Source: an uncultured Lachnoclostridium sp.
GTDB taxonomy: Bacteria > Bacillota > Clostridia > Lachnospirales > Lachnospiraceae
Direction of reading: 5' to 3'
DNA: 60,633 bases
Assembly (NCBI GenBank): GCA_944376715.1
Contig: CALWDO010000014.1
Location: forward strand, 1-60,633
Shown here: in pieces, positions 21,156 to 60,633 of the stretch
Position numbering within the stretch: position 1 is the first letter of the stretch
How the letters are laid out: each line of letters begins with the position of its first letter
Notes under the pieces: generated by a model
Databases searched by the model: none
Told to the model about the DNA's origin: nothing
Seen by the model: only the letters and a program-made list of their open reading frames with translations
Made by a program: the position numbers and the translations under genes

Positions 21156-21156
21156 A

Positions 21157-23288: not shown

Positions 23289-24383
23289 TCAGCCAAGTAT
23301 GTAATTTTCACTGAGTACTACGCCGCCCGCATCCCCAAATTCCGGAACAGACAGGCAGCTGTTCTGATCCAGATAACAGTGCGTATCCATATGGCTGTTC
23401 CAGTCCAGAAATACCACGTTGCAGCACATGCCCAGCGGAGTAAAATCTTGCAGGAAACGACGCAGTTTTTCTTCGGATATTTCCATACCAGGATCAGCCA
23501 TATCAATAAGCACGGTAAATGTATCTTCTCTCTTCCCGAACAGGCGCTCATATTCTTCCAGCAGCCCTTTGCTTTTCTTCATCCAGTCGTGCCATTTGAA
23601 ATATTCTATGATCCTTGCCTCCCGTCCGGTGACCAGATATACCATATCCCGCATCACCGACTTCGTTCCCCGGCCGCTCTGGATCCTCTGCAGATTCCGG
23701 ATCACTTCCCGAAGCTGTCCGGATGTAAACTCCCTGTCTCTGGCCCATCCGCCCGTCCATTCAGAAAAAGCATGCAGGTTTTCCTCCGAAGTCAGCTCAT
23801 AATCCAGATACTCCGGAATATGATCCACTTCTTTCTCCAAATCTTCATACATACTCTGAAGGGCAGCCATATATCGTTCAAAAAAAGAGTTTCTTCCCTC
23901 TTCCTGATAAATCTCCGGCAGATACTCGGAAAAACTCTGCCACGGAAATTCGGCCTGAAATCCTTCCAGACAGAAACGGCTGTCCGCAGCCGCTCCGGAG
24001 ACGCTGACCATCACCCAGAGGTATCTGCCTGTCAGCTCATGCAGCAGCATATCGTCCGTATTGACCCTGCGGATCCAGGAATATTGTTTCAGTATCTCGG
24101 CTTTCTGCGGGAAGGTCAGGCCGCCGTCTTCCATCTCTTCCCGGAGGTCCGCATCGGCAGCCGCAGCCAGCACTTCATATTTGCAGTTCTCGAATACCCC
24201 TGCAAGACGGAGCCTGTGCCAGGTTCCTCCCTGATCCATAGAGTCAAACACCGGCGCCAGCCAGGCAAAATATCCTCCTCCGGACCCGCAGAGGCGATCG
24301 TCGTCCGTAAGCTCCATCCGGTACTTTATGCCCCGCCGAAGAGCCAGTCGAAACATATTCACTTTTTTTGCAGTCTTCACCAT
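23289..24383 (-). CDS. eCIS baseplate protein, phage gpI-like
   Basis: The last gene of the injection-system operon. The second half (about residues 150-300) carries the gpI/TIGR02242-type tail signature: LPEIYQ, RYMAALQSMYEDLEKEVDHIPEYLD, FSEWTGGW and GRGTKSVMRDMVYLVTG in sequence, which places it in the baseplate where gpI helps tie gpJ proteins together. The first 130 residues are not recognisable and may form a peripheral or host-facing domain. It follows the shorter gpJ-like gene by 24 bases, the expected neighbour order. A strong terminator follows. Confidence 0.8.
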   Translation of the reverse strand: MVKTAKKVNMFRLALRRGIKYRMELTDDDRLCGSGGGYFAWLAPVFDSMDQGGTWHRLRLAGVFENCKYEVLAAAADADLREEMEDGGLTFPQKAEILKQYSWIRRVNTDDMLLHELTGRYLWVMVSVSGAAADSRFCLEGFQAEFPWQSFSEYLPEIYQEEGRNSFFERYMAALQSMYEDLEKEVDHIPEYLDYELTSEENLHAFSEWTGGWARDREFTSGQLREVIRNLQRIQSGRGTKSVMRDMVYLVTGREARIIEYFKWHDWMKKSKGLLEEYERLFGKREDTFTVLIDMADPGMEISEEKLRRFLQDFTPLGMCCNVVFLDWNSHMDTHCYLDQNSCLSVPEFGDAGGVVLSENYILG

Positions 24384-24407
24384 CGCCGGTATTCCTCCTT
24401 GTCCCGC

Positions 24408-26264
24408 TTAATAAAATCCCAGATCCGCAGCCTCCAGATAGCTGAGAGCGTCTTCTCTCAGAAGAATGTCTCCTCTTTCGTTCTTCACTGCCGCGCTTCC
24501 GGTACGTTCCAGAGTCAGCTCCTGTACCCGTTCCACCTCATCCAGCGCCTCCAGTCTCATAAAAAGCTTTCCGCCGGAAATCGTCGCTCCGAACGGTTGT
24601 TCTTTTCGTTCATAATCAATCATATCTTTCAGGCACTCTATGACCTTTTCCCGATCCCGGGGCGTATCCCGGATCAGATGTATCTTCCCGTGCACAGTAA
24701 TTCCTACATAAGCAGGCTCCTCAATGCTTACTTTCGTGTTCAGCAGCCGGAAAGGCTCCATGTATGTTTCAATCCGCGCCCGGTATATGTCTGAAAGCCC
24801 CGCCTTTTTCTCTCTGCTGTAAGGTTTTACAACCACGACCACTTCATTGACGCCGCGCAGCTTTCCTGTAATCTCTCCATACACGGTACCAGGAATCACA
24901 TGTGCAGTTTCCAGCATCAATCCCGGTGTGTTCAAGATCACGCTCTTATAATCTTCTGCAGAAGCCATCCTCTGCTGATGAAACAATTCTTCCTCCATGC
25001 GGGCAGCCATCTGGCGAACTGTCTCTCGGCCTTTTCCTCCATGCGCGTCTTCCGGATTCCAGACCCTGAAGGATGAGTCCCCAGCATCCGCGGCAACGCT
25101 GATACTTCCGGCCATCGCATTACCCTTTTCATACATAGAACACACCAGTCCGGTCACATGAATCAGACAGTTCTGCGGCGGTACTGCCCCGTGGATGCCA
25201 TCTCCAAACCGGACGCACTGAGTATCTCTGTCATAAGTGAATACCTGATCCCGATATCCCGCCTGATCCAGATCTTCCGTGTATTTCCATATGTCAAAGT
25301 GCTTTTCCCCGGTCTCCAGCGCCAGGGAAAAACGGCAGATGTCCGGATAATCAAACAGCAGTTCCTGGCCGGCGCAGCCGTCCGTCCGTCCGATCTGCAG
25401 TTCCGGAAGGATCTCGCCTTCTTTACAAACCGTTTTCTGCTGTACTACTTCCAAAGGATTCACATAAATCATCCCTATGCCCGGAAGAGCATCATAAGCA
25501 TCTTCCTCCAGAATGCAGCGGATATAATATGCTTCTCCCATCCCTTCCGGGTGACGGAAACGCTCCATGGCGCTGATCCCGCCCACACGGACAATCCCGC
25601 TCTTCAGAAAACCGCAGGTGCCGTCTTCTGTATCCAGATCCGTCCAGCCCGCTTCTCCGAAAAACTGCCACCGAAGACTGCACAGCCTGAAATCCTCATC
25701 AAACGGATTTCGCCGCTCATCTGCTTTTATACATATATATAACCGATCCCCGTCGGACAGGGGCTTTTCAAATCCCAGATACAATATCGAAGAATCATGG
25801 AAATAATGCGCGAAAGCCCGGGCATATTCTCCGTCTGCTCCAGCAAATGCAGTCAAGTTCATCGCACTGCCGTCGGTTTCACTGATAAATGAGCAGAACC
25901 TGTTTCCTGTCCCCATATACTCTTCTTCTGACTCGAAGGGGATCTCGCCTGCCAGGAACCGCGTCCCCGCCGGGATACGGATCTCTCCCTCTTCTCCTTC
26001 CACAGCCAGGTAGCATCTGGCTGCCTGAGCAGGGAGCGGTTCGATACCCAAAAGCTTCAGATACTTTTCAATATGCACATCCCCCGTCGCGTTCAGATAA
26101 TAATTCAACATATCGGTCAGCCACGCATAAGCCTGCAGCACCGTTATCCCGGGATCATGATTATTGAAATCCGTCCACTGGTCCGTCATGGCCGGTATGC
26201 GGCTTACTGCCCTCTGTATCATCTGTTCATAGCTCAGATCATCCAGTCTTGGTACTTTTAACAT
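24408..26264 (-). CDS. eCIS baseplate protein, gpJ-like (Afp11/Pvc11 type)
   Basis: A 618-residue baseplate-assembly protein. The N-terminus (LDDLSYEQMIQRAVSRIPAM, then FNNHDPGITVLQAYAWL) is the typical start of Afp11/Pvc11-like gpJ proteins that form the baseplate wedges around the spike. The middle is a beta-rich insert. The C-terminal half (NTPGLMLETAHVIPG, a VVVVKPY segment, APRDREKVIECLKD-like end) resembles the gpJ core. The start overlaps the end of the larger gpJ-like gene by seven bases, so the pair is translationally coupled. Confidence 0.85.
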   Translation of the reverse strand: MLKVPRLDDLSYEQMIQRAVSRIPAMTDQWTDFNNHDPGITVLQAYAWLTDMLNYYLNATGDVHIEKYLKLLGIEPLPAQAARCYLAVEGEEGEIRIPAGTRFLAGEIPFESEEEYMGTGNRFCSFISETDGSAMNLTAFAGADGEYARAFAHYFHDSSILYLGFEKPLSDGDRLYICIKADERRNPFDEDFRLCSLRWQFFGEAGWTDLDTEDGTCGFLKSGIVRVGGISAMERFRHPEGMGEAYYIRCILEEDAYDALPGIGMIYVNPLEVVQQKTVCKEGEILPELQIGRTDGCAGQELLFDYPDICRFSLALETGEKHFDIWKYTEDLDQAGYRDQVFTYDRDTQCVRFGDGIHGAVPPQNCLIHVTGLVCSMYEKGNAMAGSISVAADAGDSSFRVWNPEDAHGGKGRETVRQMAARMEEELFHQQRMASAEDYKSVILNTPGLMLETAHVIPGTVYGEITGKLRGVNEVVVVVKPYSREKKAGLSDIYRARIETYMEPFRLLNTKVSIEEPAYVGITVHGKIHLIRDTPRDREKVIECLKDMIDYERKEQPFGATISGGKLFMRLEALDEVERVQELTLERTGSAAVKNERGDILLREDALSYLEAADLGFY

Positions 26265-29110
26265 TCACTCACCTCGATATATACCATATGATCTCCATTT
26301 ACCGCCATGAGAAACGGATCCTGCATTCTCCCGTAAAACTCTTCGTTCACCGGGACTTCTTTTCCCTCCACATATGCCGTCATCACGATCCGCGACACGC
26401 TGCACCCGACTATGCCCGCGCGCAGCCGGGCTGTCACCTGAGAAGTTCTCGGCATCTCGCCGATCTCCCAGCCATCTCCTCCCATGCCGCCTTTCAGGGG
26501 ATCCAGAAATTCCCGAATCAGGTCCTGCGCCCTCTGCTGAAGATCATATGCATGATCTATACCTTCCTTTTCCAGCCACACTCTCACGCTGAACCGTATA
26601 AAGTGAGGCTGGATCAATACCAGTTCTTTTCCCAAAGGAATCAGCGAACTGTCTCTCATCAGGCGCTCCCGGATCGCCTTCTTGATCTCCGAAAATACAT
26701 GCGCGCCTTTTTCATATTCTTCTATCAGGACGGCAATGGTCACACAGCCGGGTCTGTCTTTCCCTTCGGCATCCGTATGATTGCAGCATTTCACCTTCCG
26801 CACCCCGTAAGAAACCTGAAAAATAATGTCAAACAGATCACGGTTAGTCACAGCCCGGTTCCTGGTACGCAGCATCCCTCCTGCGAGACGTTTCACGCTT
26901 TCCTCTGTATATCCGTCGTACCCGCCGTAGGTAGGGAAGGGGTTGTTTACCGAAGAAATATACCGGATCGCGGATCCCAGCACTTTGATCGAACCGGCAG
27001 GCAGATTCGCCTTTGTTCCGGTATAATTGCAGTGATGTACCCGGATCTGGGGGCCTTCCTCCGGTATGCGGAAATTCACAAACGTATTTTTCCGGAAATG
27101 GAGCACCCCGTCCGCCATATCCAGCTGGAATGTCCTTCCGCCTTCATATGCCCGCTGCGCACGCTTCCAGGAAACCCATCTGCGCCCCTCTTCCGTATCC
27201 TCCAGGATTTCCACTGAAGCACGCAAAAGATTTTGCTGGGACAACTGGATATCCAGAGCTTCTTCCATGCTGTCAAGATAAAATTCTTCAGTCACCGTAT
27301 TTACGTTGACCACTTTGGCCATATTCGGATAGATTCCGCGGATTACCGGAAGCGCGTATTCCGGATTTTCTTTATTGTAATCTATAAACCGCAGGAAATA
27401 TCCTTCTTTTCCGAACATGGATCTGCGCGCCATATCTCCCGGTATTACCAGCAGCATATTGCCGGAACCGCAGAAACCGCCCGTATAATCCGACACCCGG
27501 ACGGGCGCGAAGCCATGATCGGACCAGTATTCTACCTGGAAATCCACCGGACGGTCGCTGTAATTCTCGATATCAAAATACAGGCTGAACGGCGTACCCG
27601 AGACCGGAGCGTCAAACCCCAGGTACATGGTGCGTTTCCCATGTTCCGTATGACAGAAAAGATTCGTGTTTCCGCCATATCTCAGATCTTTTGTCACATC
27701 TCTTTCATCAAAATTATTTTTGCTCAGGGCATAATCCGCTCCCTGCTTTTCGTCCGCGTACGAATAGGCAAGGTTCAGGGCCGAAACAAACGGGCAGCGG
27801 TACACGGCCGGCATCCGGTAAATATTCTCTGCCTGCAGAAGCCTCGCCCGGATACGGCCTTCTCTTCTTCCGGCATCATAATCCACCATATCGGAAGGGC
27901 AGACAAACTCCAACGTCACCTCGCCCTCTCGGGACCCGTTAAACAAAGCGTTCAGATGTTCTTCTTTAAACAGCCGTTTCCAGCCGGTCACACTCAGATA
28001 TTCCCAGCATACATAGTCCGCGACCACTTCAGCCGGACGTATGGACAAGGGCTTTTTCGGTTTTTTCATGATCGCCTTGTATTCTGTGTCGATCTCGGGC
28101 ATCTCCAGAATTTCTTCATGCACCCGGTAATCCAACCGGAAACGAATCTGCACCTTCGCCCCTTTTCTGCTCAGAACCTCCGGATCGTCAAACGCGAATC
28201 CGCTGTAAAGTCCCATTGGTTTTCCGAAAGGATAAAAAGCGCCCGCGTTTTCCTCCACGCCGTTGACATAGACCTCTTCCGGAATCACGTTATCCTTTTC
28301 AAAGGCAACGCTCACCGTATCCACATAGAGGTCCGGCATCTGTCCGGTACAGGTCAATATCAGACAATAGCATTCTTTCTGCCCCACAGTCGTTTTCCCG
28401 GGCATATAATCGTCCATCCTTACCGCAATATGCCCCTCTTCTTTTTTCACATCCGGAAGCGCTTTCTCCTTCCCCCCTGCTTCCAGCATGGACCACCGTA
28501 ACTGATCTGATACCAGAAAATCCAGCAGAGCTTCCTGTTCCCCTTCGCTGACCGCTCTGATATATATCTTCAGTTCCGGACTGCGCACTTCATCGAACAG
28601 ACTGTCAAAACACAGATACAGCCGGTGCTCTGCCCGGTTCTCTCCCCGAACACTGAAAGCGGTAAAAGGGGAACGTTCCTCCGGCCCGCAGCTGTGAACC
28701 ACGATCCGGTCTTCCTCCCGGTCCGTCACTGCCGCCAGAACGGGATTCGCGTCCGTCACCGTCAGGCTGTGCTCTGTCTCAAAGATTACATCTCCGGTCT
28801 CCGGAGCTTCCGCCATGGTTCTCGTTCCTTTGGGAACCAGGATCATACCTTCATACCCCGTTACCGGACGGAACTGCACATACCCTTTTGAAGCGCTGAC
28901 CGGCTCCTTTAATAAAGATTCAAACAGATTCAGGTACTGAATATAATGCTTATCCAGTACCCTGTCATATCTCTCCCGGCATTCTTCCAGCATACTTCCG
29001 CAAAGATCGGTCATGACGGAACCCGGATCATCCCCTCCGTGTTCATAGGCAAATTCCGGAACATAGGAGTTCATTGTTCTCTGCAGTTTTTCGTATGTAT
29101 TCTCCATCAT
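26258..29110 (-). CDS. Large eCIS baseplate protein, gpJ-like (Afp12/Pvc12 type)
   Basis: A 950-residue gpJ-family protein that in Afp/PVC particles forms the outer ring of the baseplate together with the Afp11-like partner. It opens with a helical segment (MNSYVPEFAYEHGGDDPGSV), runs through large beta-rich inserts, and ends in a gpJ-type core (GGMLRTRNRAVTNRDLFDI, then GCVTIAVLIEE and a final VEVSEC). Length agrees with Afp12-like proteins (about 900-1000). It starts 24 bases after gp25 with a GAAAGGAGAG site. No membrane segment is seen. Confidence 0.85.
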   Translation of the reverse strand: MMENTYEKLQRTMNSYVPEFAYEHGGDDPGSVMTDLCGSMLEECRERYDRVLDKHYIQYLNLFESLLKEPVSASKGYVQFRPVTGYEGMILVPKGTRTMAEAPETGDVIFETEHSLTVTDANPVLAAVTDREEDRIVVHSCGPEERSPFTAFSVRGENRAEHRLYLCFDSLFDEVRSPELKIYIRAVSEGEQEALLDFLVSDQLRWSMLEAGGKEKALPDVKKEEGHIAVRMDDYMPGKTTVGQKECYCLILTCTGQMPDLYVDTVSVAFEKDNVIPEEVYVNGVEENAGAFYPFGKPMGLYSGFAFDDPEVLSRKGAKVQIRFRLDYRVHEEILEMPEIDTEYKAIMKKPKKPLSIRPAEVVADYVCWEYLSVTGWKRLFKEEHLNALFNGSREGEVTLEFVCPSDMVDYDAGRREGRIRARLLQAENIYRMPAVYRCPFVSALNLAYSYADEKQGADYALSKNNFDERDVTKDLRYGGNTNLFCHTEHGKRTMYLGFDAPVSGTPFSLYFDIENYSDRPVDFQVEYWSDHGFAPVRVSDYTGGFCGSGNMLLVIPGDMARRSMFGKEGYFLRFIDYNKENPEYALPVIRGIYPNMAKVVNVNTVTEEFYLDSMEEALDIQLSQQNLLRASVEILEDTEEGRRWVSWKRAQRAYEGGRTFQLDMADGVLHFRKNTFVNFRIPEEGPQIRVHHCNYTGTKANLPAGSIKVLGSAIRYISSVNNPFPTYGGYDGYTEESVKRLAGGMLRTRNRAVTNRDLFDIIFQVSYGVRKVKCCNHTDAEGKDRPGCVTIAVLIEEYEKGAHVFSEIKKAIRERLMRDSSLIPLGKELVLIQPHFIRFSVRVWLEKEGIDHAYDLQQRAQDLIREFLDPLKGGMGGDGWEIGEMPRTSQVTARLRAGIVGCSVSRIVMTAYVEGKEVPVNEEFYGRMQDPFLMAVNGDHMVYIEVSEC

Positions 29111-29134: not shown

Positions 29135-29548
29135 TTACAGTTCTCCGATCCCTTCTTCCAGATAATACGGAAATACCAGGTTATTCGGATTGTTGGTTGC
29201 TCGTACCGTGTAATGAATATTCAGATACACAGCCCCCCTGTCTGTTCTCCGCCTGTCCACATCCACTTTCACATTTCGGATCCTCGGCTCATATTTGGTC
29301 AGCGCGTCCTCCACTTCATGGCTGATCCGCACTGCGAATGCAGAATCCGGCACATCAAACAGATACTCGTGAACCGCACACCCGAAATCCGGCAGCATGG
29401 CCCTCTCTTTTTTCCGCGTCATTAAAATAATATAGATCGACTGGCGGATATCTTCTTCATTCTCCGCCATCACAAACTGCCCGGTAGCCGGGTCGATCCT
29501 GGGAGGAAACGCGAAGCCTCTCCCCAAAAATGCTTTTGTTCTGTCCAT
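29135..29548 (-). CDS. gp25-like baseplate wedge protein
   Basis: A 137-residue homologue of T4 gp25 (Afp9), the small wedge protein that starts sheath polymerisation on the baseplate. The signature is clear: LGRGFAFPPRID, DIRQSIYIILMTRKKERAMLPDFGC and a final beta-rich part. I take the ATG at 29548 (MDRTKAF) as start, with GGCGGGAAAGG before it; six more codons upstream are open, but the purine-rich sequence there directly abuts that ATG, with no spacing. Confidence 0.9.
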   Translation of the reverse strand: MDRTKAFLGRGFAFPPRIDPATGQFVMAENEEDIRQSIYIILMTRKKERAMLPDFGCAVHEYLFDVPDSAFAVRISHEVEDALTKYEPRIRNVKVDVDRRRTDRGAVYLNIHYTVRATNNPNNLVFPYYLEEGIGEL

Positions 29549-29586
29549 ACCTTTCCCGCCTTTCATCTCCGACTGCCGCGCTCCTA

Positions 29587-30366
29587 TCAGTTCACCTGTA
29601 CGACGGCTCCCTTCAATGCCAGCGGACCGGATGCCTGCACGTTTACCTGTGCCTGTCCCTTCAGATCTACCTGCGCCCCTTCCATCTTAAGAGACGCGTT
29701 TGCTTTCAGCCCGATCTCATTGTCGGCTGAAACAGAAACTTTGGAAGCTTTCAGCTGGATATTTCCTCCGCTTCCATCCATGGTCAGCTCTGTGCTCCCT
29801 GCTTTCAGGCTGATCTTTTTATCTGCCTGCACAGACACTCCGCCGTTTTTATAATCCAGTTCCAGAAAATTTTTTCCATCCTTATCAGCCACGCGCACGC
29901 TCTCCTTTTCATCGTCCGCCGTGATCACATGTCCTTTGGGCGTGGTCAGTGTGATATTTGCTTTCCCTTCCTCCTCCTGGATCAGGATATCCAGACCGCC
30001 CTTGGTTTTCAAATGCTTCTTTAAATTTTTATCGTCAAAGCTGTCATTTACAATGGATGCCCCCTCCGGATACAGACTTCCCAGCAGGAAAGGCCGTTTC
30101 AGACTGCCGCCGATAAACCCTACCAGTACAGTCTCATCGATCTCCGGAACACAGTACATCCCATAGTCTTTTCCTGTATACGGGGAAAGCAGCCGCACCC
30201 ATTCGCACATATTTTTCCCGGTCTCCCAGACAGTGAATTCTACTTTCACCATTCCTTTGAAATCCGGATTATTGTTTTCCACCACCGTTCCCTGGACGAA
30301 TCCGGGGACGGTCTGGCTGTCATAACGTTCATTTTCTTTCTGCAGCAAATCGGTTATGGAATTCAC
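29587..30366 (-). CDS. Spike protein, gpV/gp5-like
   Basis: The central spike tip base of the injection system, corresponding to the C-terminal part of VgrG or Afp8. It has an OB-fold domain (VPGFVQGTVVENNNPDFKGMV start of the gpV pattern), CVPEIDETVLVGFIGG, LLGSLYPEG, and then a repeating beta-helix-like tail with regular ISLKAGSTEL, IQLKASKV and LKMEGAQVDLKG units. I chose the GTG at 30366: it overlaps the gpD stop as GTGA and has GGAGGT nine bases before it, giving 259 aa. The frame is open farther upstream, but that part merely lies under gpD. Confidence 0.88.
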   Translation of the reverse strand: MNSITDLLQKENERYDSQTVPGFVQGTVVENNNPDFKGMVKVEFTVWETGKNMCEWVRLLSPYTGKDYGMYCVPEIDETVLVGFIGGSLKRPFLLGSLYPEGASIVNDSFDDKNLKKHLKTKGGLDILIQEEEGKANITLTTPKGHVITADDEKESVRVADKDGKNFLELDYKNGGVSVQADKKISLKAGSTELTMDGSGGNIQLKASKVSVSADNEIGLKANASLKMEGAQVDLKGQAQVNVQASGPLALKGAVVQVN

Positions 30367-31460
30367 AGACTGTCCACCTCCGCCTTCAAATATGTACGGT
30401 AGCCGCTTCTGTCCACCACATGCCGCACACAGGTCACATAATATTTCCGGTTCATACGCGAGGACAGCTGATCCAGCTCCACGTAGCGTCCCGGCGCCAG
30501 CTCCGGGATTCCGATACATTCGCAGTCCATCTGTCCGAAACGGGCAAGCCCCGCATCCAGGCGGGTCTGAGCGCGTAATTTGGCCTCCGCGGCGTCCTTA
30601 ACGCCCGGCTCATAATAAACCTGATGAGAATCTCCCATCATTTTTTTCGGGCCGGAACCGCTGCCATACGTTCCTGCCGGCGATGCCTCTCCGCTGATCT
30701 GCTTCCCGCTGGAAGCATCGATGCTGCGCACCTCGATCTTTTTTACCAGTTCCTGTCCCGATATCGTGAAACGGGCATTGAGCAGCCCTTTTCCCGGAAC
30801 CAGCTTCATGATCGGAGAAGTCACTTTTCTGCGCTTTCGAAAATACACCTTTCCCTGCAGCACAAAAAATTCAAAACCGTTCTTTGAGGCCTGCTCCACA
30901 ATCAGGTCATAGTCCGACATCATGTGGCTGCGCAGCGGTACTTCCTCTTCCGGACATCGATCCAGCTCTTTTCCCGCCAGATAGCTGCTGGCCGGCGTTT
31001 CTCCCAGAACCGCCGAAACTACGGCGTCCGCACTTTTCTGGGTAAAAAACTCCATCCGCCGGGTCTTCATCAGGAGCCCTTTCAGATCCATGCATTCCAC
31101 ATAAATATCAAAGCCGCTGCCATCTGAACCGTACCTGTATTCGATCCGGTTAATGTATCCTTTAAACACCGACTCCAGACGTACATATCCCAAGGATACC
31201 TCCACGGTCTCGCCCAGCTGCAGGACGTCTGTCTCGCTGATATAGTCTGTCAGTTTCGGTTCATAAGCCCCGATCACCAGGAACGTACACCCGGAGGCCT
31301 CGAATCCGTTGGTCAGCTCCAGTTCCAGTTCCCCGATCTGAAGTTTTTCCCCCGATATCAGTTTCCTGCTGCCCACCTGAATCTCCAGCTCCGGAGACAC
31401 AAAACCATTGTATTTCTTTTCCAGTTCCGCATAGGTGGCGGTAACGCTCATCAAATCCAT
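30363..31460 (-). CDS. Spike hub protein, gpD/gp27-like
   Basis: Forms the hub that links the tube to the spike, like T4 gp27 or the first half of VgrG. The 365-residue chain shows the late-control-gene-D pattern: LEIQVGSRKLISGEKLQIGELELELTNGF in parts, LGYVRLESVFKGYINRIEY, YVECMDLKGLLM and a final RKYYVTCVRHVVDRSGYRTYL region. The ATG at 31460 follows GGAGGGCAGCAT. Its stop overlaps the start of the gpV-like gene (GTGA), so hub and spike are separate but translationally coupled, unlike the fused VgrG of type VI systems. Confidence 0.88.
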   Translation of the reverse strand: MDLMSVTATYAELEKKYNGFVSPELEIQVGSRKLISGEKLQIGELELELTNGFEASGCTFLVIGAYEPKLTDYISETDVLQLGETVEVSLGYVRLESVFKGYINRIEYRYGSDGSGFDIYVECMDLKGLLMKTRRMEFFTQKSADAVVSAVLGETPASSYLAGKELDRCPEEEVPLRSHMMSDYDLIVEQASKNGFEFFVLQGKVYFRKRRKVTSPIMKLVPGKGLLNARFTISGQELVKKIEVRSIDASSGKQISGEASPAGTYGSGSGPKKMMGDSHQVYYEPGVKDAAEAKLRAQTRLDAGLARFGQMDCECIGIPELAPGRYVELDQLSSRMNRKYYVTCVRHVVDRSGYRTYLKAEVDSL

Positions 31461-35206: not shown

Positions 35207-35692
35207 TTACCAGTCCCAATCGTCCGGATCCATACCGCTCTTCTGATATCCGTCTTCTTCCAGCGTCTGGTATGTCATCTCCAGCGTCAGCGACATGATC
35301 CCGCTGTTCTCCGCATTCAGCTCGCTCAATGACGCCTTGCGGATCATGCATCCCTGCAGCTCATAGGATTTTACCGTCTCCCCTTCCGCCCCCAGCACAT
35401 AGATCGATACCTCGCCCCGGATCCGGCGCCCCGGATAGTATTGGGTAAATTCGTCCTCATTCTGCAGCAGCCCTCTCTCCAGCGTCAGGATCTTTTCTTC
35501 GCGGACCGAGTCCCCCACGCTGTATACCATCCAGTTTCGTCCGCCTTCCACGAAAGTTTCCGTCGGGCGCGTCATCTCCAGACCGGATATCCTGCGGAAC
35601 GGAACCTGCTTCATGCCGCCCAGGAAAACATTAAAGTTATAACCCCGGCGGTATAATTCTCTGTTCTTGCTCTGTTGGGATGATTTTGCCAT
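35207..35692 (-). CDS. Second tube protein (gp19-like, Afp5 type)
   Basis: A tail-tube family protein of 161 residues. The N-terminal YNFNVFLGGMKQVPFRRISGLEM followed by RNWMVYSVGD is the T4 gp19/tube fold seen in Afp1 and Afp5. Such second tube proteins form the first rings between baseplate and main tube. I chose the ATG at 35692 (MAKSSQQ) because it has GGAGGCGGAG before it; an earlier in-frame ATG (35716) lacks a good site. It lies right after the small DUF6760-like gene, as in other eCIS loci. Confidence 0.87.
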   Translation of the reverse strand: MAKSSQQSKNRELYRRGYNFNVFLGGMKQVPFRRISGLEMTRPTETFVEGGRNWMVYSVGDSVREEKILTLERGLLQNEDEFTQYYPGRRIRGEVSIYVLGAEGETVKSYELQGCMIRKASLSELNAENSGIMSLTLEMTYQTLEEDGYQKSGMDPDDWDW

Positions 35693-35705
35693 AACTCCGC
35701 CTCCG

Positions 35706-35879: not shown

Positions 35880-35881
35880 GG

Positions 35882-52488: not shown

Positions 52489-55400
52489 TCATCGGTTTTC
52501 GCGGTACTTTTTTACTTTCCGGCTGATGTAATACGCTATGCCCGCAATGGCTGTCAGCCCTGCGGCAACCTCCAGGATCAGAAGATAATTGAATCCGCTG
52601 CCGGCTCCGTCCGGATGTTCCAGACCGATCAGTACATAGTGATTCTGGTCCGTCATATACGCGTAAACCATTCCGTCTTCCCGCCTTGTCTCCAGCGGTG
52701 TGACCGCATTGTTTCCATCGATGCTGGCGATGATTACCGCTGCGTTTTCGTATCCTTCCGGAATCGGGATGCCGATCTCTGTATCTCCGTCCGGGCGCAC
52801 CGCCGTGCTTCCTGACATCAGGCGGATGTCATAGGACGCCAGTATCGTGTAATCGTCGCCATAAAGCAGTTTTACATTGTCCAGTTCCGCATTTGAATAA
52901 TCCATTACTTCCGTTACCAGGCGCACATTGTCCGGCGCCGCGTCCCTGGCAAAAGAAGCCACGGTATAATATTCTTCTTCCTCCAGCTGGCGCATGCCCG
53001 CAGTATCAGAAGCATTCACTCTGCGCGCAAGGCCGGACGCGTCCGTATCGTGCAGTCCTTCCTCTGCCAAACGCTCTGCCTCCGCCTGTTTCATCTCTAC
53101 TGCCGGGATGGTATCTACTTCATAGTAGAATTCAGACACATCGGACAGCTGCAGGTCTTCCCGGTACGCTACCGCTTTGACGGTAACAGTCCGGTTGACC
53201 GCGATGCCCTCTTCCGTATATTCCAGCAGACTTTCCATATTGTCCAGAGTCGGTTCCGTGCCGTCTGTCGAGTAGTAGATCACCGCGTCGGCAGTGTCCG
53301 TATACAGAGATACCACAGTGCCCGGATCCAGTACCGCGCCATCTTCCCTGGAAGCGGTAGGCGCCGCGGCTTTCGACGCCGCCGTATACTGGAACGATGA
53401 CACTTCACTGACTTCACCGTCTGCGGAAACCGCGATCGCGCGCAGGTTCGTGGTGCGGTCGATCAGGATAGGCTCTGTATAGAGACTGGAGCTTTCCGTC
53501 GGCGTGGTGCCGTCTGTAGTATAATAGATCTGGTCCCCGTTGGAGCTGAGGATTACCCGTGTCGCTATCGTCAGCGTTCCTCCGGACGGAGAGGCTGTCG
53601 GCGCGTTGGGCACTTCCTTGATACGATACATAAAGGAGACTACCGTCCCGGATACTCCGTCCACTCTGGCTACCGCCTTGATCGTAAACGTGCTCCCGGG
53701 AGTTCCCTGGATCGTCACCGTGGATCCTTCAATCCCGCTGTCGTCCGGAGAAGAGCCGTCCGTTGTATAATAAATCGTCGCTCCGGTCACATCCGTCATC
53801 AGATTGACCTTGGATCCATTGGATACCGAGCTTCCTGTCGGCACATCCGCTGTCACGCCTCCTGTGTTCGCGCTGAACTGATAAGTAAACGTAGCCACTT
53901 CGCTGTCTGATTTCCCTTCCTGCCGCGCTACTGCCATGATCGTGATCTGCTCTCCCGCCGCGCCGTTAAGCGTCAGGGAATCTCCCTGTACCACCGCCGT
54001 GTTGCTAAGATCTGTCGGGTCGCTGCCGTCCATCGTATAGTAGACCGTCGCTCCGGACGCCGCGCTAAGGTGAAGTACGGTTCCCCTAGATACGACTGTG
54101 CCGCTCTCGATAGACGCCGTCGGCGCGCCCAGGGTATCCATCAAAGTATAAGTAAACTCCGCCACCTCGCTGGCAACGCCGTCTTTGACAGCAATCGCCT
54201 TGATCGTGGTCGTCTGCGTGATCACAAAGGGCTGGCTTTCGTCAAACACCGGGCTGGACACCGTCGGATCCGCCGGTTCTTCCCCTCCGTATGCCACGGT
54301 ATAATAGATCACCGCGTCTTCCGTACGGTTCCGCAACACCACAGAAGTGGATGCGGAAACGCTGCCGGACGAGACACTGGCATACGGCGCCATCACATCT
54401 CCCGGATATGCAAATGTCAGATGTACTTCGCTGCTCAGCACGAGCCCTGTCCTGGCCGCTACCGCCGTAATGGTAAAATATCCGCTGCTGCCTTCCGGCA
54501 TGACGATGCCCTGGGTAGCGTCGTACAGCATGGTCGAAGAACCTTCCGCGATCTGGAAACTGCCGTCTTCCAGCTCTTCCAGCTGCGGAGAAGTACCATC
54601 CGTCGTATAATAGATGGACGCGCCCCTGGTCAGGGTAGACAGCAGGATCTTCTCGCCGGGCACTACCTGCGCAGGCGACGCCGACGAAGTGGTCGGAACC
54701 GAAGTAGGCGCATCCGCCGCGTCCTTATCCGCGATATTGTAGACAAATGTACGGATCTCACTGTCCAGCATACCGTCCCGCACCGCCATTACACGTACTG
54801 TAAATGTCTCGCTGTAGGAGCCTTCCACAATGATTCCTGTGCTCGGATCATACGGCGTATCAGGCACTCCTGTGCTGTTGCCGATGGAATAATACAGCTC
54901 CGCTCCCTGCGTCGCGCTGGAGAACGAAAGAGAGGCTCCCATATCGATCTCCGTCCGTTCCAGATCTTCGCCGCCGGGCAGATAATAGGTGGACAGGGCC
55001 GCTTCCGGCGCGGAAACCTGCTGCTGCGGATTGACATTATATACATAAGTCGTCACCGCTCCCGGTTCCATATCTTCCATCAGATTTACCGCATAGACAT
55101 AGACAAGCTGTGCATCTGACTCTTCATTGCGGATCACCGCTCCGTCGGCCTCGTCATATACGGTCACTTCATCGGACGACACTCTGTACCATCTGCTGCT
55201 GTTCTGGAAATAGGTGTAACCGCCGCTCACGCCGCCGTCTGCCATCCCGCTGACCAGCGAAGCGTCTGTCACTCTCTCTATCGTAAACGGTGCGTAGCTC
55301 CCGCCGGACGCCAGATAGATAATCCTCGCGCCGGAGGTCTGAGAGGACAGGTTCACCACCTCGCCCGCGTCGATCGAATACGCGCCGCCCGCATCCGGCG

Positions 55401-58400
55401 GCGTACCCTCTTCGGTGGAAGAACCGGTATTCGGCGATATCCGGATTCCGTCGCAGCTGTCCCCTGCTGTAAAGGTATATTCTGCAACCGCGCTGTAACT
55501 GCTGTCCGAATATCTTGCCCTGGTGTAGACATACACGGTCGAACCGGAAGCAGCCAGCTGCGGCTTATCGGCCTCATTGTAATCGCTCCAGGTATGGCTT
55601 TCGCTCTCGCTGGACCGGATCTCATACTGGAGAGTCACGCCGTCTCTGTTGCTGCCGAGGGATAATACATCCCCGGGCACAACGGTCGCCCCCTCTTCCA
55701 GCACCGTCCCTGTCTCCGGGATCAGCGCCTGCGCGGAGATCTGCGTACGCGGGCCGACCTGAATCGGTCCGTAACAGTAAACAGCATCATTATAATTCTC
55801 TTTTGACACCTGCAAATACAAATATACCGTCGTTGTCTCAGCATAATCCGGGAGTGTCATACTGCCGGCGTATTCACTGCTGCCTTCCATCAGACCGGAA
55901 ATATCACCGCCGGTATAACGTCCGCTGTACTTTCCACTATGACTTTCATCCGTCATGTCCCATTCATCGGCAACCGGTTCCGATGTGGAGAATAGATACC
56001 GCAGCGTATATCCTTCCATTCCGCTGATATCCGCTCTCAGATCGCTTCCGCTTTCGTAGACATTTCCATCTTGCAGACCCTGGTAATCCTCCCTCGACCC
56101 GTCCTCCTGATAACCTCCGGAAATTGTCACATCGGGTTTCAGCAAAGGTTCGCGGGAATCAGCATTATATGCGGGAGACGAAATCGTGGGATATATATAT
56201 CCTTGAATCATCGGAGTCAGCCAGTATTGAACCGTCTCTGCATCAAACGGAAGCTGAGCCGTTTGATTTGTTATATTTGCCGTTTCAGATTCTTCTGTTG
56301 GAATTCCATTTGTATTAAGATAGTAAATACTTCCATTCACTACCGTTTCAAAAGTCAATTCAATGACATCCGAGCCATCGTCCATACGCACAACATTCCA
56401 CTCAATGCTATCAGCTTCATATGGGTTCTGAGCCGGGTTATCGCTATATGGGAAAACCGTCGCTTGGTTCTCTTCCGGTATATCCTGTATATAATGGTAA
56501 AATCCATCCGTTGAATACAAATTCAGCAATGTATAATACCCGCTCCGGCCGAGTTCCACTTCAACTTCAGAACCGGCCGGATCATTAACCGCAACATACA
56601 ACGTAGGGTCCGCCGACTCCGACATCGATTTTCTCGCCTCGTAAGCAACATAATATGTCAGATTCTGATTGGTTTTCGGAACTGCAACAGACACCGTAAA
56701 GCTGCCATTCCCATCCTGACCAACTGTTACATCCTCATCTTCAAATTCAGCATCAGAAATGACCAGCCATGACAGATCCAATACCGTCTCTTCTGATCCA
56801 CTACTTGTATAATGAGTGAAAGACTTCCAATTGGCATCATCTGCATTTGCCAGCTGATATCCCGAGTTGATGTTGTAAAAAACCTGATTTTCTGATGTAA
56901 CTCCTGAAGCGCCTTCCGCCAGTATCAGGGAATTTTCCAATGTAATATTGGCATTATCTCCCAGAAGCGCCACTACCGTTCCGGAACTGCCCGTGGCAGA
57001 AGGAGATTTTATTATATAGAGATATGAAACTTTTGCTCCGCTCTGGCCCTGGCCCATGATACCGCCGACAGCCAGCAAAGCGCCATTTTCCGCTGCAGTG
57101 TCTACTGTGCCATTTAAGGAAAGGTTCTGTTTCACCTCTGTGATGCTGCCGGAACTGGTACCGGCGATAACACCGGTGTAAAGGTTATTGCCGGAGTTTT
57201 TAGTTAAATTAGTCGGCTGTGGATCATCATTCCCGTAATTAGGTTCACTATATTGCCCTTCTTCTTTCTGGTCTTCTATAATGTCCAAGCTCTCATAATC
57301 AACATATTTATAACTATTTGTGTTTCCATAAATATCTGTACATTCACCAGTAATCATTCCTGTGGATGCAGTCAAAGTTAGCGGAACATTTTCGTTGCCT
57401 AACGTCGACACAGTATAAGCCCCCGTTAACGCTATATTGTCTCCTGCATTTAATGTTCCATTTGACGCGGGATCTTCAGAAACATTCCACGTTATAGTCC
57501 CTGTAATTCCCGTACCCGAAATAGGCCCTGTAATTCCCTGCTCAACCTGTGCAATAACGATTTCCTTGTCTGTCTGAGCGTTTCCAACCGCACTTGTCCA
57601 TGTATTTTCAAGGGTCAACGTATAATTAATCTGGTCTCCCACAAAATAATTTGTTTGACCTGTAGACAATGTCCATTCTAAATCTCCAGTTTTGCCAGAT
57701 ACACTTGTTGAACCTCCTGGTGAAATCACTTGCGTACTCACGGGACTGGTACTTGTGGTTTTATCGGTTGACTCAGTATAACTTACAGTAAATTCTGGAG
57801 TTACGGTCTCTGATGATTGTGGACTATAAGTACATATAAAGGTCTGAGATTCATTACCTTCTAATTCAAAATTTCCAGCATCTATAGTGACCGTTCCACC
57901 ATCAACCTCTATATCCATTCCGTTAATATCCGATGTCAAACTAATACCTGAAATCTGCTGATCGCTGTTATTTCCAACAGTGACTGTAAATGTATTATTA
58001 TTTACGTCATCCTTCACTGCGGATACCGCAAGACTGCCTACCTCCGTTGATTGCGTAGGTACAGAAACTGTTTGTAAATATTGAACATTTTGTTCCCAAC
58101 CCGCCGTAAACACAATACTGAAATTATCTCCTGATGAGTTAGCGTTTACAGAATATCTAAATTTCTTAGTTTCACCTTGCGTAAGCGAAAAAACATCATA
58201 ATCATCGCCGCCTTCTACGGCGGTCCAGTACCCTCCGTTTACACTAGCCCCCAAAACAATATTGTCAATTTGTGCTTGTGAATTGTTTTTTACTGCCACA
58301 TTGTACGTTATTGTTCCATCTGCATCGACATACTCTGGCGCCGTCACTGTTATTTGTAATTCATTGTCACCTGTATTAATGTTAACTGTTTGCTCACCCG

Positions 58401-59415
58401 GTGCATAAACTTTTACCTGACCATTAGTAGCAGTTACGCTTTCATCAGACACCTTCATTTCCGTGCCCCGAGTAACCTCATAATAAAAATATTGGGAGCG
58501 CGAACCTGTTCTGCTTTCCTGATAGGTAACAGAAGACGCTTTTTGTATGACTGTCAGATTTTCGCCACACACCTCCACCTTTGATACCGTTGCCCCTGAT
58601 GAAAGTGTCCCGCATAAGATTCCAAAAAAATCCGTCGACGGTTCCGAAAGATTATATGTAACTGTTTCCGTTACTTCTTGATCCTTTTCATCTCTTTTAT
58701 ACTCTGTATAGATCCTGCCTTCTTCAGGCCGTTCATCCGTAAGTGTTCCATCATTTAACACATACCACGACTTCGAAGCATCTAATTTTTTTGCAAATTC
58801 GCTTTCATTTGGATTAGTATTTACGCTTGACAATATCGCATCCTGGTATGATGCTGACGGTTCTGCGCCATATGTCAGCTCTGTATCCGCCTGAGTATCG
58901 CTATGTTCTACTATTGAAGTCCTTGTATATGATGCATCATTGTCTGTGATATTAATAATTAAATTCTGTACAATCGCCTCACCTTCAATTGTTCCGAACA
59001 AAATACCTTCCGATACATCTTCTTCACTTGTACTGGTGCTTTCAAGATTAACATTCTCTATCGTCAGCACATGTCCATCGCCATCAAAGGTTCCTGCAAA
59101 ACTCCCGTCAGCCGCATCTGTTCCGGTAAAGGAGACCGTCAGGTCACTTTCCAGACGAAATATTTTATTTTCAGTCTCCCCTCCTGAAGCACCTCTTAAA
59201 GCACTTAAATCCGCTTGCGTTTTAATCAAATATGCGCCATTCTCAAAATCAAAATTATAATTTTCTCCCCCAAGCGTAATCTCTTCCGCTCTCACCCCGT
59301 TTCCCACACTCAGCGCCAGCGCCGCACCGGCCAGCGCCAGCAGGAGCGTCCCGGCCGCCGCGTACTTCGTACTCTCTTTCTGCCACCATGTTTTGATCCG
59401 ACTTCCGATCCTCAT
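52489..59415 (-). CDS. Giant surface protein with GLUG-like, CARDB-like and CHB_HEX_C repeats (2308 aa)
   Basis: Same plan as the 1645-aa protein: signal-anchor at about 18-36, outside region, C-terminal membrane segment at about 2276-2298, basic tail, no sorting motif. The N-terminal third has GLUG-like beta units (DGSFAGTFDGDGHVLTIENV, GGIMGQGQSG) and CARDB/Ig-like stretches (VTAPEYVDADGTITYNVAV). Residues about 1430-2100 carry about seven IYYTTDGTTP-type repeats, and a TEIGIPIPEGYEN domain closes the outside part. The first third of the gene (about 56200-59260) is clearly richer in A+T than the rest, suggesting a swapped or separately acquired module. It lies 18 bases after the AAA+ gene. 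Confidence 0.78.
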   Translation of the reverse strand: MRIGSRIKTWWQKESTKYAAAGTLLLALAGAALALSVGNGVRAEEITLGGENYNFDFENGAYLIKTQADLSALRGASGGETENKIFRLESDLTVSFTGTDAADGSFAGTFDGDGHVLTIENVNLESTSTSEEDVSEGILFGTIEGEAIVQNLIINITDNDASYTRTSIVEHSDTQADTELTYGAEPSASYQDAILSSVNTNPNESEFAKKLDASKSWYVLNDGTLTDERPEEGRIYTEYKRDEKDQEVTETVTYNLSEPSTDFFGILCGTLSSGATVSKVEVCGENLTVIQKASSVTYQESRTGSRSQYFYYEVTRGTEMKVSDESVTATNGQVKVYAPGEQTVNINTGDNELQITVTAPEYVDADGTITYNVAVKNNSQAQIDNIVLGASVNGGYWTAVEGGDDYDVFSLTQGETKKFRYSVNANSSGDNFSIVFTAGWEQNVQYLQTVSVPTQSTEVGSLAVSAVKDDVNNNTFTVTVGNNSDQQISGISLTSDINGMDIEVDGGTVTIDAGNFELEGNESQTFICTYSPQSSETVTPEFTVSYTESTDKTTSTSPVSTQVISPGGSTSVSGKTGDLEWTLSTGQTNYFVGDQINYTLTLENTWTSAVGNAQTDKEIVIAQVEQGITGPISGTGITGTITWNVSEDPASNGTLNAGDNIALTGAYTVSTLGNENVPLTLTASTGMITGECTDIYGNTNSYKYVDYESLDIIEDQKEEGQYSEPNYGNDDPQPTNLTKNSGNNLYTGVIAGTSSGSITEVKQNLSLNGTVDTAAENGALLAVGGIMGQGQSGAKVSYLYIIKSPSATGSSGTVVALLGDNANITLENSLILAEGASGVTSENQVFYNINSGYQLANADDANWKSFTHYTSSGSEETVLDLSWLVISDAEFEDEDVTVGQDGNGSFTVSVAVPKTNQNLTYYVAYEARKSMSESADPTLYVAVNDPAGSEVEVELGRSGYYTLLNLYSTDGFYHYIQDIPEENQATVFPYSDNPAQNPYEADSIEWNVVRMDDGSDVIELTFETVVNGSIYYLNTNGIPTEESETANITNQTAQLPFDAETVQYWLTPMIQGYIYPTISSPAYNADSREPLLKPDVTISGGYQEDGSREDYQGLQDGNVYESGSDLRADISGMEGYTLRYLFSTSEPVADEWDMTDESHSGKYSGRYTGGDISGLMEGSSEYAGSMTLPDYAETTTVYLYLQVSKENYNDAVYCYGPIQVGPRTQISAQALIPETGTVLEEGATVVPGDVLSLGSNRDGVTLQYEIRSSESESHTWSDYNEADKPQLAASGSTVYVYTRARYSDSSYSAVAEYTFTAGDSCDGIRISPNTGSSTEEGTPPDAGGAYSIDAGEVVNLSSQTSGARIIYLASGGSYAPFTIERVTDASLVSGMADGGVSGGYTYFQNSSRWYRVSSDEVTVYDEADGAVIRNEESDAQLVYVYAVNLMEDMEPGAVTTYVYNVNPQQQVSAPEAALSTYYLPGGEDLERTEIDMGASLSFSSATQGAELYYSIGNSTGVPDTPYDPSTGIIVEGSYSETFTVRVMAVRDGMLDSEIRTFVYNIADKDAADAPTSVPTTSSASPAQVVPGEKILLSTLTRGASIYYTTDGTSPQLEELEDGSFQIAEGSSTMLYDATQGIVMPEGSSGYFTITAVAARTGLVLSSEVHLTFAYPGDVMAPYASVSSGSVSASTSVVLRNRTEDAVIYYTVAYGGEEPADPTVSSPVFDESQPFVITQTTTIKAIAVKDGVASEVAEFTYTLMDTLGAPTASIESGTVVSRGTVLHLSAASGATVYYTMDGSDPTDLSNTAVVQGDSLTLNGAAGEQITIMAVARQEGKSDSEVATFTYQFSANTGGVTADVPTGSSVSNGSKVNLMTDVTGATIYYTTDGSSPDDSGIEGSTVTIQGTPGSTFTIKAVARVDGVSGTVVSFMYRIKEVPNAPTASPSGGTLTIATRVILSSNGDQIYYTTDGTTPTESSSLYTEPILIDRTTNLRAIAVSADGEVSEVSSFQYTAASKAAAPTASREDGAVLDPGTVVSLYTDTADAVIYYSTDGTEPTLDNMESLLEYTEEGIAVNRTVTVKAVAYREDLQLSDVSEFYYEVDTIPAVEMKQAEAERLAEEGLHDTDASGLARRVNASDTAGMRQLEEEEYYTVASFARDAAPDNVRLVTEVMDYSNAELDNVKLLYGDDYTILASYDIRLMSGSTAVRPDGDTEIGIPIPEGYENAAVIIASIDGNNAVTPLETRREDGMVYAYMTDQNHYVLIGLEHPDGAGSGFNYLLILEVAAGLTAIAGIAYYISRKVKKYRENR

Positions 59416-59433
59416 CCGTGCGCCTCCTGTCTT

Positions 59434-60633
59434 CTATAAAAATGCATCAGCCAGCTCTTTCTGGGAAGAACTGAAATTCTTGCCTTGTTTTCCATATTCA
59501 TTGCGGATGCCGTCCAGAATGTGCCGCATCCCCACGGACGTATCTTCCGCCCTCGCCAGAAGCGCCGCGTGCATCGCCGCATTCTTGATCGACGCTCCGG
59601 ACAGTTCAAATGCCTGCGCCAGCATCCGGCAGTCTACCTCCGGAGATACCGGCGTATGTTTCGGGAAGATCCCTTCCCAGAGTTCTGTCCTCAGATCCGT
59701 ATCCGGCATGGGGAAATGCACCATATAGGAGATTCTCCTGCGGAACGCATCGTCAAAATTCTGCAAAAGGTTCGTCGCCAGGATGGAGACGCCCCCGTAC
59801 TGCTCGATCCGCTGCAGCAGGTAAGCCGTCTCCGCGTTGGAATAGCGGTCCTGCGCGTCGGATACGTCGCTTCGTTTGGTAAAGATCGCATCCGCCTCGT
59901 CAAACAGCAGGATACAGTCGCATTTATCGGCTTCGTCGAAGACCCTGCCGATATTTTTCTGGGTTTCCCCGATATATTTGCTGATGAGCTGGGACAGATC
60001 CACCCGATAAAGGGGCATCCCCAGTTCACCCGCCAGGACCTGCGCCGCCATGGTCTTTCCTGTGCCCGGCGCGCCGTAAAACAGGACCGAGATCCCGTTC
60101 CCATAGGAAAATTTGTCTCCGAATCCCCACTGCTCCATCACCTCTTCTCTGGAAGAGATCATGGCGCACAATTTTTTCAGAAGTTCCATCTGCGCCCCGG
60201 GAAGTTTCAGCTCCGCGAAGGTGCGGTTTGCCGCCAGCAGATTCAGCCGGGCGGAGACCGGCGTTCTCAGCAGACATTCCCGGTCTGCGCTTCCCAGCTC
60301 CAGCTCTGCCCGTATATTATGCAGATATCTCAGAAATGCCCCCGTGGGAAGCTGTCTGCCCGTAATCTGATGTATGGACACGTCTTCCGGCAGACGCTCT
60401 GTCAGATCTCCCAGTACATCCTGCGCTATCCGAAGCTTCATCTGACGGTCCGGACGGGAGAGCGTGCGCTCCACCACCGCGCAGCCTGCCCCCTCGGCCA
60501 GCTCCCGGTCCTTATCTTTCAGTATCCCGAAAGCGCCGAAGCACGCCGTGAATTCTTCCAGCAGGTCTTCCCGTATCTCTTTGTCCAGCCGGACGCAGGG
60601 AAACGCATCATAGAGACGCACGCACAGAACCCC
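59434..60633 (-). CDS. AAA+ ATPase of the injection system (Afp15/Pvc15-like), 5' end missing
   Basis: The ATPase that marks eCIS loci and is thought to help assembly or loading. The AAA module has Walker A GAPGTGKT, Walker B CILLFDEADAIF, and the arginine-finger region FDDAFRRRISYMVHFPMP. A helical domain precedes it. The frame is open to the edge of the window (no stop before 60633), so the true start lies outside; the GTG at 60621 is probably internal. It is the first visible gene of the operon, 18 bases before the giant surface protein. Confidence 0.88.
   Translation of the reverse strand, partial: GVLCVRLYDAFPCVRLDKEIREDLLEEFTACFGAFGILKDKDRELAEGAGCAVVERTLSRPDRQMKLRIAQDVLGDLTERLPEDVSIHQITGRQLPTGAFLRYLHNIRAELELGSADRECLLRTPVSARLNLLAANRTFAELKLPGAQMELLKKLCAMISSREEVMEQWGFGDKFSYGNGISVLFYGAPGTGKTMAAQVLAGELGMPLYRVDLSQLISKYIGETQKNIGRVFDEADKCDCILLFDEADAIFTKRSDVSDAQDRYSNAETAYLLQRIEQYGGVSILATNLLQNFDDAFRRRISYMVHFPMPDTDLRTELWEGIFPKHTPVSPEVDCRMLAQAFELSGASIKNAAMHAALLARAEDTSVGMRHILDGIRNEYGKQGKNFSSSQKELADAFL

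Follow-up and report, generated by a model that had tools for sequence, protein, structure and literature searches.

A near-constant four-gene cassette, with three genes coding for predicted membrane proteins, accompanies contractile injection systems of Clostridia and may dock them to the cytoplasmic membrane

We analysed a stretch of 60,633 nucleotides (the window) from an uncultured Lachnoclostridium sp. (contig CALWDO010000014.1 of assembly GCA_944376715.1), in which a minus-strand gene cluster of the extracellular contractile injection system (eCIS) type spans positions 23289-60633, up to the window end. Four of its genes, coding for a CIS13-family protein (U597), a pseudokinase (PK), a HAMP-domain receptor (HAMP) and a MORN-repeat protein (MORN), are a near-constant cassette of this eCIS subtype. 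Many Clostridia, gut species above all, carry such a machine, usually with the four-gene set, three genes of which code for predicted membrane proteins. We propose that this is a subtype of contractile injection system (CIS) of monoderm Clostridia that is docked to the cytoplasmic membrane, with a pseudokinase hub like EssB or TraF and a HAMP sensor as trigger; the proposal has in our estimate an even chance of being right. Below, G-numbers denote genomes (G000 is the window's own, represented by contig 14) and L-numbers denote loci or stretches read.

Six large genes, all on the minus strand, lie between an AAA+ ATPase gene and the Pvc16/DUF4255 cap gene (aa, amino acids; Ig, immunoglobulin; TM, transmembrane segment):

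59434..60633, minus strand: AAA+ ATPase (Cis15-type), Pfam AAA 4.8e-27, 5' end cut by the window end
52489..59415, minus strand: GIANT1, 2308 aa, with N-terminal signal/TM, Fn3_assoc/CHB_HEX_C_1 Ig-like repeats and C-terminal TM; a lineage-specific putative outer part
47482..52419, minus strand: GIANT2, 1645 aa, architecture as GIANT1
45699..47489, minus strand: U597, CIS13-family, 596 aa, no TM, NCBIfam CIS13_fam 1.6e-27; cassette gene 1
44775..45665, minus strand: PK, pseudokinase with one TM and a short tail, 296 aa from ATG, called from fold and TM scan; cassette gene 2
42077..44749, minus strand: HAMP, four-TM receptor, 890 aa, with two extracytoplasmic domains, HAMP, a degenerate class III cyclase-like domain and a TPR-like tail; cassette gene 3
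40351..42051, minus strand: MORN, 566 aa, Pfam MORN 3.3e-20, with basic N-terminus, one TM, MORN repeats and a C-terminal part; cassette gene 4
39748..40332, minus strand: cap (Pvc16_N/DUF4255), Pfam 2.3e-25

The order, sizes and junctions of the six genes are as an earlier note on this DNA had given them, on one strand with tiny gaps or overlaps; the seven junctions from ATPase to cap measure +18, +69, -8, +33, +25, +25 and +18 nucleotides (nt), which is consistent with a single transcript. A promoter and terminator scan of 38000-53000 did not rise clearly above shuffled sequence and is uninformative on internal promoters. The note had also described two giant repeat proteins, a pseudokinase, a HAMP/pseudo-cyclase sensor and a MORN protein, and these calls are backed, respectively, by the Fn3_assoc/CHB_HEX_C_1 repeats, the predicted fold, the loss of metal aspartates and Pfam. 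Its count of four or five membrane proteins agrees with a simple hydropathy scan (cut-off 1.6), which gives TMs in five; the sixth, which it had left as an unknown, has no TM and stands outside the membrane set as the CIS13-family protein (45699-47489). The reading of all six genes as one block was rejected, the giants being lineage-specific and outside the conserved cassette.

The scan is crude: sheath (1.65) and DUF4280 protein (1.67) pass its cut-off as well. In both GIANT1 and GIANT2, one TM lies near the N-terminus and another near the C-terminus; in the cassette the counts are one for PK, four for HAMP, one for MORN and none for U597. The TM of the window's PK is weak (1.78), and PK homologues reach about 3.3 at the same position. 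Among 77 PK homologues, 54 have one TM, 20 have two and three have none; in 70 of the 74 TM-bearing homologues, the last TM begins 40-59 residues from the C-terminus. Four TMs are predicted in 57/71 HAMP homologues and one in 58/61 MORN homologues, while 75 of 80 U597 homologues have none.

The constancy of the cassette emerges from 80 named loci, the best of 449 relatives in a U597-profile scan with one genome per species. As the loci were chosen by U597, their synteny describes the company of this type of U597, not of every type. With profile hidden Markov models (HMMs), and on the same strand, PK follows U597 in 74/74 loci with 1 kb to spare, HAMP follows PK in 66/66 with 4 kb to spare, and MORN follows HAMP in 65/65 with 5.5 kb to spare. 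The HMMs were refined once on the same loci; of the hits, 78/78 for PK, 74/78 for HAMP and 67/67 for MORN had already been made before refinement. Because the order recurs in dozens of loci with proteins as low as 17-30% identical to those of the window, it is far beyond chance. By their titles, 50 of the 80 loci are from Lachnospiraceae and four from Oscillospiraceae, and many name rumen, caecum, colon, rectum or faeces; environmental genera such as Herbivorax and Anaerobacterium are also present. The nearest named record (L065, U597 99% identical) is that of Lachnoclostridium sp. An196, which carries no mark of a metagenome-assembled genome and which we take to be a cultured isolate from chicken caecum.

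The sheath occurs in 13 of 61 relatives, with a HAMP homologue on the sheath contig in 12; in the remaining one, G022, the contig is short. The order-wide sample comprises 344 genomes: 30 have a sheath, 38 a U597 match and 27 both. In the stretches read, 21 of the 30 sheath genomes hold all four cassette genes and three hold partial sets at contig ends (G219, G304, G355). Sheath and cassette lie on different contigs in four of the 21 full sets (G351, G113, G350, G097); PK is on the opposite strand in G074, and its frame is short in G184. Of the 348 genomes sampled across the phylum, among them G000 and G064, 17 have a sheath and four have PK; PK and sheath coincide in G000, G064 and G614, and G492, with no sheath match, has U597, PK, MORN, cap, U234 (a conserved eCIS protein) and HAMP on a short contig.

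The cassette occurs in three arrangements: upstream of cap and sheath, as in the window (A); after the CIS12-like gene but with HAMP displaced to a place behind the PAAR gene (B); and intact after the CIS12-like gene (C). In all three, the cap, U234 and PAAR genes follow MORN where the stretch suffices, one U234 call being missing (G292). As this company is kept across the three arrangements, it is not mere neighbourhood, and a dedicated membrane block is real and travels with the particle genes. The ratios of nonsynonymous to synonymous substitution rates (dN/dS) between the window and G006 are 0.113 for PK, 0.105 for HAMP and 0.087 for MORN, next to 0.104 for Baseplate_J 1, 0.052 for the sheath and 0.041 for the cap; U597 (0.115) was compared only with G003, against which synonymous sites are saturated in four of seven genes. 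The cassette genes are under purifying selection.

The CIS13_fam match covers residues 8-149 of U597, scores 96.8 bits against a full-length equivalog cut-off of 370, and is found in 30/30 U597-family members scanned, the window's included. The U597 profile also matches All3314 (7b5h; E=0.0042), a protein of the thylakoid-anchored CIS (tCIS), in a shared N-terminal register. Judged by these matches, the N-terminal ~150 aa of U597 is a domain of the baseplate-attachment type. In one Paenibacillus eCIS, the CIS12/tail gene is immediately followed by a U597-like gene, an order also found in arrangements B and C. Family membership, the All3314 match and this position together make it most probable that U597 belongs to the particle, at the baseplate. 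With no TM and a CIS13-family match, it was rejected both as a membrane protein and as a free-standing unknown. A fold search with the whole chain listed 50 matches, with no TssK among them; the multi-domain model (predicted local distance difference test, pLDDT, 76) is uninformative, and we claim no kinship with TssK. The eBAP3 fibres have been given a TssK-like reading in the available part of published work. Eleven of the 38 U597 matches of the order-wide sample come from genomes without a sheath, and ten of these cover the C-terminal part only. G049 (L163) has a near full-length U597-like protein and neither sheath nor cassette in the 20 kb read.

The AlphaFold model of PK (pLDDT 88) matches protein kinases in Foldseek (E about 1e-6, probability 1.00); there are 1242 matches at E<=0.001, and the 50 listed are mostly eukaryotic kinases. 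In the hhalign register, the position of the HRD aspartate is D in 0/43 members and that of the β3 lysine is K in 20/43. The near-invariant Asp148 (39/43) may mark the DFG site. PK thus has a degenerate kinase fold followed by a TM, the pattern sought in an EssB/YukC-like hub.

In the HAMP protein, the first extracytoplasmic domain weakly matches NHL/propeller structures. Pfam recognises the HAMP domain in 16 of 18 members scanned and Guanylate_cyc in one of the 18 (E=9.3e-9). The TPR-like tail is the best conserved part, with 42% mean pairwise identity (n=18) versus 20% for the first ectodomain. We examined the cyclase site in 78 proteins of eCIS loci (71 named loci, the window's and six G loci, some near-identical and a few second copies): the metal aspartate is D in 1/78 at site 1 and in 6/78 at site 2, and only L070 and L071 have an acidic residue (D or E) at both. 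Both aspartates are intact in two aligned non-eCIS homologues (L063, L064). HAMP-linked class III adenylyl cyclases have the HAMP domain, cyclase-like fold and TPR-like tail in common with the eCIS-linked set, which differs from them by the loss of the metal aspartates. Because the metal residues are lost, active cyclase signalling was rejected. The window's own genome encodes on contig 20 (L064 9744-12521) a HAMP-cyclase homologue of 925 aa with intact metal-site motifs; the 20 kb read contain no match to any other eCIS gene. In G555 (L190 11937-14678), a HAMP/Guanylate_cyc protein adjoins the cap and sheath genes of an eCIS with no match to PK or MORN, perhaps a simpler or ancestral state.

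The genes that accompany the cassette differ between lineages. Of the 80 named loci, 15 have giant-type genes, 51 have genes for secreted OEP-like proteins, none has both and 14 have neither. The similarity to the OEP (TolC) family rests on Pfam values of 1.2e-13 and 1.4e-4 in two members. Where MORN and cap are both in view (n=42), the interval between them holds an OEP-like gene and a second secreted protein in 25 loci, an OEP-like gene alone in three and neither in 14, and these 14 are the giant carriers L065-L078. Of the 14 loci with neither giant nor OEP-like gene, all but L108 and L111 stop short of MORN, and these two end within 1.4 kb of it. As the giants never co-occur with OEP-like proteins, the two look like alternative fillings of one extracytoplasmic slot. 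OEP-like genes are also found in arrangement C; in arrangement B, the stretches read hold neither type. L046 9201-11255 and L052 5605-7458 are examples of OEP/TolC-family proteins encoded between MORN and cap in the eCIS of monoderms.

Given the conserved membrane block, a membrane-docked or signal-triggered device is plausible. We hypothesize that the CIS13-like protein sits on the baseplate via its N-terminal domain and binds the cytoplasmic pseudokinase, which would be the membrane hub, a role that in Gram-positive bacteria EssB/YukC plays for type VII secretion and TraF for type IV secretion. The HAMP receptor would sense a ligand outside the cell and license firing by signalling to the docked baseplate through a change of conformation and not through cAMP. 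MORN and the exchangeable outer parts, which would be giant Ig-repeat proteins in the window's lineage and OEP/TolC-like proteins, mostly with a second secreted protein, in others, may line or guide a path through the wall, or form the contact. In its fullest form, the proposal is that commensal Clostridia possess a signal-gated, envelope-docked injection machine, the monoderm counterpart of the type VI secretion system (T6SS), with a platform of pseudokinase hub and dead-cyclase receptor and an exchangeable wall-spanning part (giant Ig-repeat pairs or TolC-like proteins). We put this forward tentatively and rate it somewhat below an even chance.

The earlier note had assumed that known eCIS particles are released freely. 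This is too strong, as thylakoid-anchored, cytoplasmic (Streptomyces, CisA) and haloarchaeal membrane-anchored CIS have been published (PMC8894136, PMC12237407, PMC10066040, PMC11566945); these and the other accounts are cited from the parts of their text that were available. Cis13 and Cis12 carry the tCIS of Anabaena to its membrane, the TM helix of Cis13 being the thylakoid anchor (PMC8894136). The window's cluster resembles tCIS in its eCIS-type particle, its matches to the CIS13 family (over the N-terminal ~140 residues) and the CIS12 family, and the match of U597 to All3314. In contrast to tCIS Cis13, U597 has no TM helix of its own, yet the gene next to it in the cassette codes for the TM-bearing pseudokinase, which we count in favour of docking; PK, HAMP and MORN go unmentioned for tCIS in the available text of PMC8894136. 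CISSc of Streptomyces is likewise a Gram-positive CIS that needs a membrane protein, CisA (PMC12237407), but CisA is described as one bitopic protein, whereas here there is a conserved multi-gene set with a sensor and putative outer parts. The haloarchaeal membrane-anchored CIS (archaeal T6SS), by Cis11 nearest to the CIS of Bacillota, is also found in single-membrane cells, and a conserved putative anchor gene tracks its T6SS-like mode (PMC11566945); that anchor (Hbor_38620-type) is described with six TMs and a cytoplasmic domain of ~150 residues, whereas six TMs are predicted for none of the window's cassette proteins. YukC/EssB contacts all parts of the type VIIb secretion system (PMC9600267), and TraF of pIP501 is a structural relative of EssB/YukC in a Gram-positive type IV secretion system (PMC13037476). 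PK shares with these hubs of Gram-positive secretion machines an N-terminal cytoplasmic pseudokinase and one TM; it differs in having a short outer tail only, no Pfam YukC match listed and a contractile system as its setting. No description of the cassette was found in searches of the open-licence PMC literature, a coverage outside which most subscription papers and preprints fall. The particle and the general idea of membrane docking were already known; what appears to be new is the cassette with its constancy and the exchangeable outer part.

Several observations weigh against the docked, EssB-like interpretation. The similarity between the PK and EssB sequence profiles is weak (hhalign P=0.0014, probability 7%), no EssB structure is among the best 50 of the 1242 fold matches, the window's PK has no Pfam family at E<=1, and PF10140 is not among the families listed (25 of 26) for the 43 members; kinship by sequence being weak only, we keep EssB as an analogy. 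The mutual exclusion of giants and OEP-like genes follows clade and may partly be common descent. Distance matrices correlate (Mantel r) at 0.84-0.96 among the cassette proteins (67 loci) and at 0.71-0.94 between these and the cap protein (42 loci), values reached in none of 200 permutations; this is supporting only, since linked, vertically inherited genes also give high values. Six of the 30 sheath genomes of the order-wide sample show no PK, HAMP or MORN in the stretches read (G322, G346, G222, G103, G235, G332), so the cassette is not needed for a CIS as such, and 14 of the 17 sheath genomes of the phylum sample have no PK match; the cassette therefore marks a subtype and not all eCIS. For three of the six, the neighbourhood is unsettled, as the contigs of G332 are only 3-6 kb and the stretches of G103 and G235 hold sheath and tube without baseplate genes. 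A genome-wide search of the six found no PK in five and a marginal match in G222 (E=9.8e-4, other contig). A U597-like gene without PK, HAMP or MORN match occurs in the eCIS stretches of G322, G346, G222, Paenibacillus cellulosilyticus and Haloferax larsenii, and the Paenibacillus and Haloferax plasmid loci have the particle genes (the Haloferax stretch, 33.7 kb, is the one haloarchaeal eCIS searched). The expectation that all six large genes stand beside other eCIS therefore holds strongly for four, whereas the giants are confined to one subgroup and the six genomes above show none of the three membrane genes. Separately, one sheath region of G235 lies on two contigs in mirrored order (L182, L183), which may reflect either an inverted duplication or an artefact of assembly.

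The strongest alternative is that the CIS, like that of Streptomyces, is cytoplasmic and self-targeting; the cassette would then be a receptor in the cell's own membrane that recruits and fires particles on stress, leading to death or differentiation. A sensor receptor suits stress triggering, and in arrangements B and C the cassette directly follows the CIS12-like gene; the large extracytoplasmic parts, namely giants, OEP-like proteins and MORN repeats beyond the TM, however, exceed the apparent needs of self-killing, and we regard this explanation as rather unlikely, at little over one chance in four. Less probable still, at somewhat under one in five, is a conventional released eCIS in which the cassette never touches the particle but governs how it is produced, loaded or released, or else protects the producer. 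Regulators do occur nearby: G014 has a MalT/LuxR-type gene upstream, G052 has a response regulator upstream of U597, and GerE has been published, in the text available, as adjoining 25.8% of eCIS loci. But the HAMP protein shows no recognisable kinase, active cyclase or DNA-binding output domain, structural genes and cassette are interleaved in all three arrangements, and the CIS13-like protein resembles a particle part. That the membrane genes are passengers unrelated to the particle is very improbable: the six sheath genomes without PK, HAMP and MORN would fit, but the order is invariant in 65 to 74 loci with identity down to 17-30%, is kept through rearrangement, and the genes are under purifying selection. 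Docking to the cytoplasmic membrane is the interpretation that we prefer.

Authors working on the Streptomyces CIS have called CIS action through a thick Gram-positive wall difficult to conceptualise (PMC10066040); the conserved gene set offers direct candidates for a membrane platform, a trigger and a path through the wall. In the available text of eCIS surveys, one finds these systems depleted in the digestive system except in Bacteroides and relatives, and another finds human-gut eCIS mainly in Bacteroidota. A widespread clostridial subtype would change this picture.

The particle genes are the recognisable eCIS of the earlier note, with Pfam matches to AAA, Pvc16_N, DUF4280, sheath, two gp19-type tubes, CIS_tube, GPD, Phage_base_V, gp25 and two Baseplate_J, and NCBIfam matches to CIS12 and TIGR02242. 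Sheath, tube, spike, gp25, Baseplate_J, CIS_tube, Pvc16_N cap and AAA+ ATPase thus stand in one cluster. Downstream of the cap gene it continues as follows:

39050..39751, minus strand: U234, conserved eCIS protein without a Pfam or NCBIfam family match
38639..39031, minus strand: DUF4280/PAAR-like protein, Pfam 1e-34
36847..38565, minus strand: contractile sheath, Pfam
36371..36811, minus strand: inner tube 1 (gp19-type), Pfam 4.8e-44
35882..36316, minus strand: U144, tail assembly chaperone-like, PHROG 508 1e-7
35207..35716, minus strand: inner tube 2 (gp19-type), Pfam 3.8e-15
32214..35177, minus strand: U987, with 3 x 312-bp repeat, length-variable, possibly the tape measure
31483..32214, minus strand: CIS_tube-family protein, Pfam 9.9e-30
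30363..31460, minus strand: baseplate hub GPD, Pfam 1.8e-9
29587..30519, minus strand: spike (Phage_base_V), Pfam 2.2e-24
29135..29566, minus strand: gp25 baseplate protein, Pfam 3.9e-26
26258..29110, minus strand: Baseplate_J 1 (Cis11-type), Pfam 9.8e-6
24408..26264, minus strand: Baseplate_J 2, Pfam 8.7e-8
23289..24383, minus strand: CIS12-family/tail protein, last gene, NCBIfam CIS12_fam 1.5e-21 (below its cut-off), TIGR02242 1.7e-15

Among the matches listed for the operon proteins at E<=0.01, there is no TssJLM-type Pfam family, as a canonical T6SS (i-iii) would call for, and no family named holin or endolysin; a PADLOC run returned nothing useful. With its listed start, the spike gene shares 157 nt with the hub gene; because its matches in G006 and G003 cover the protein from residue 52 on, the real start probably lies further in. 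By eye, a terminator-like hairpin follows the CIS12-family gene. At its other end, the operon probably runs past the window end. The near-identical G014 has an ATPase copy of 615 aa and, in the stretch upstream of the window's end (L036 4520-10064), a second AAA+ gene and the MalT/LuxR-type regulator upstream of the ATPase. U987 contains three tandem 312-bp copies at 33070-34005 with 94% matches, and its G014 counterpart is shorter (938 vs 987 aa). The 165-nt gap between U144 and tube 2 (35717-35881) resembles, by eye, a small coding frame, possibly of the DUF6760 type annotated in the Haloferax locus. Genes of the Wood-Ljungdahl type (CdhD-like, prismane/CODH, MTHFR and RnfC-like), also on the minus strand, lie downstream of the eCIS at 10608-23154.

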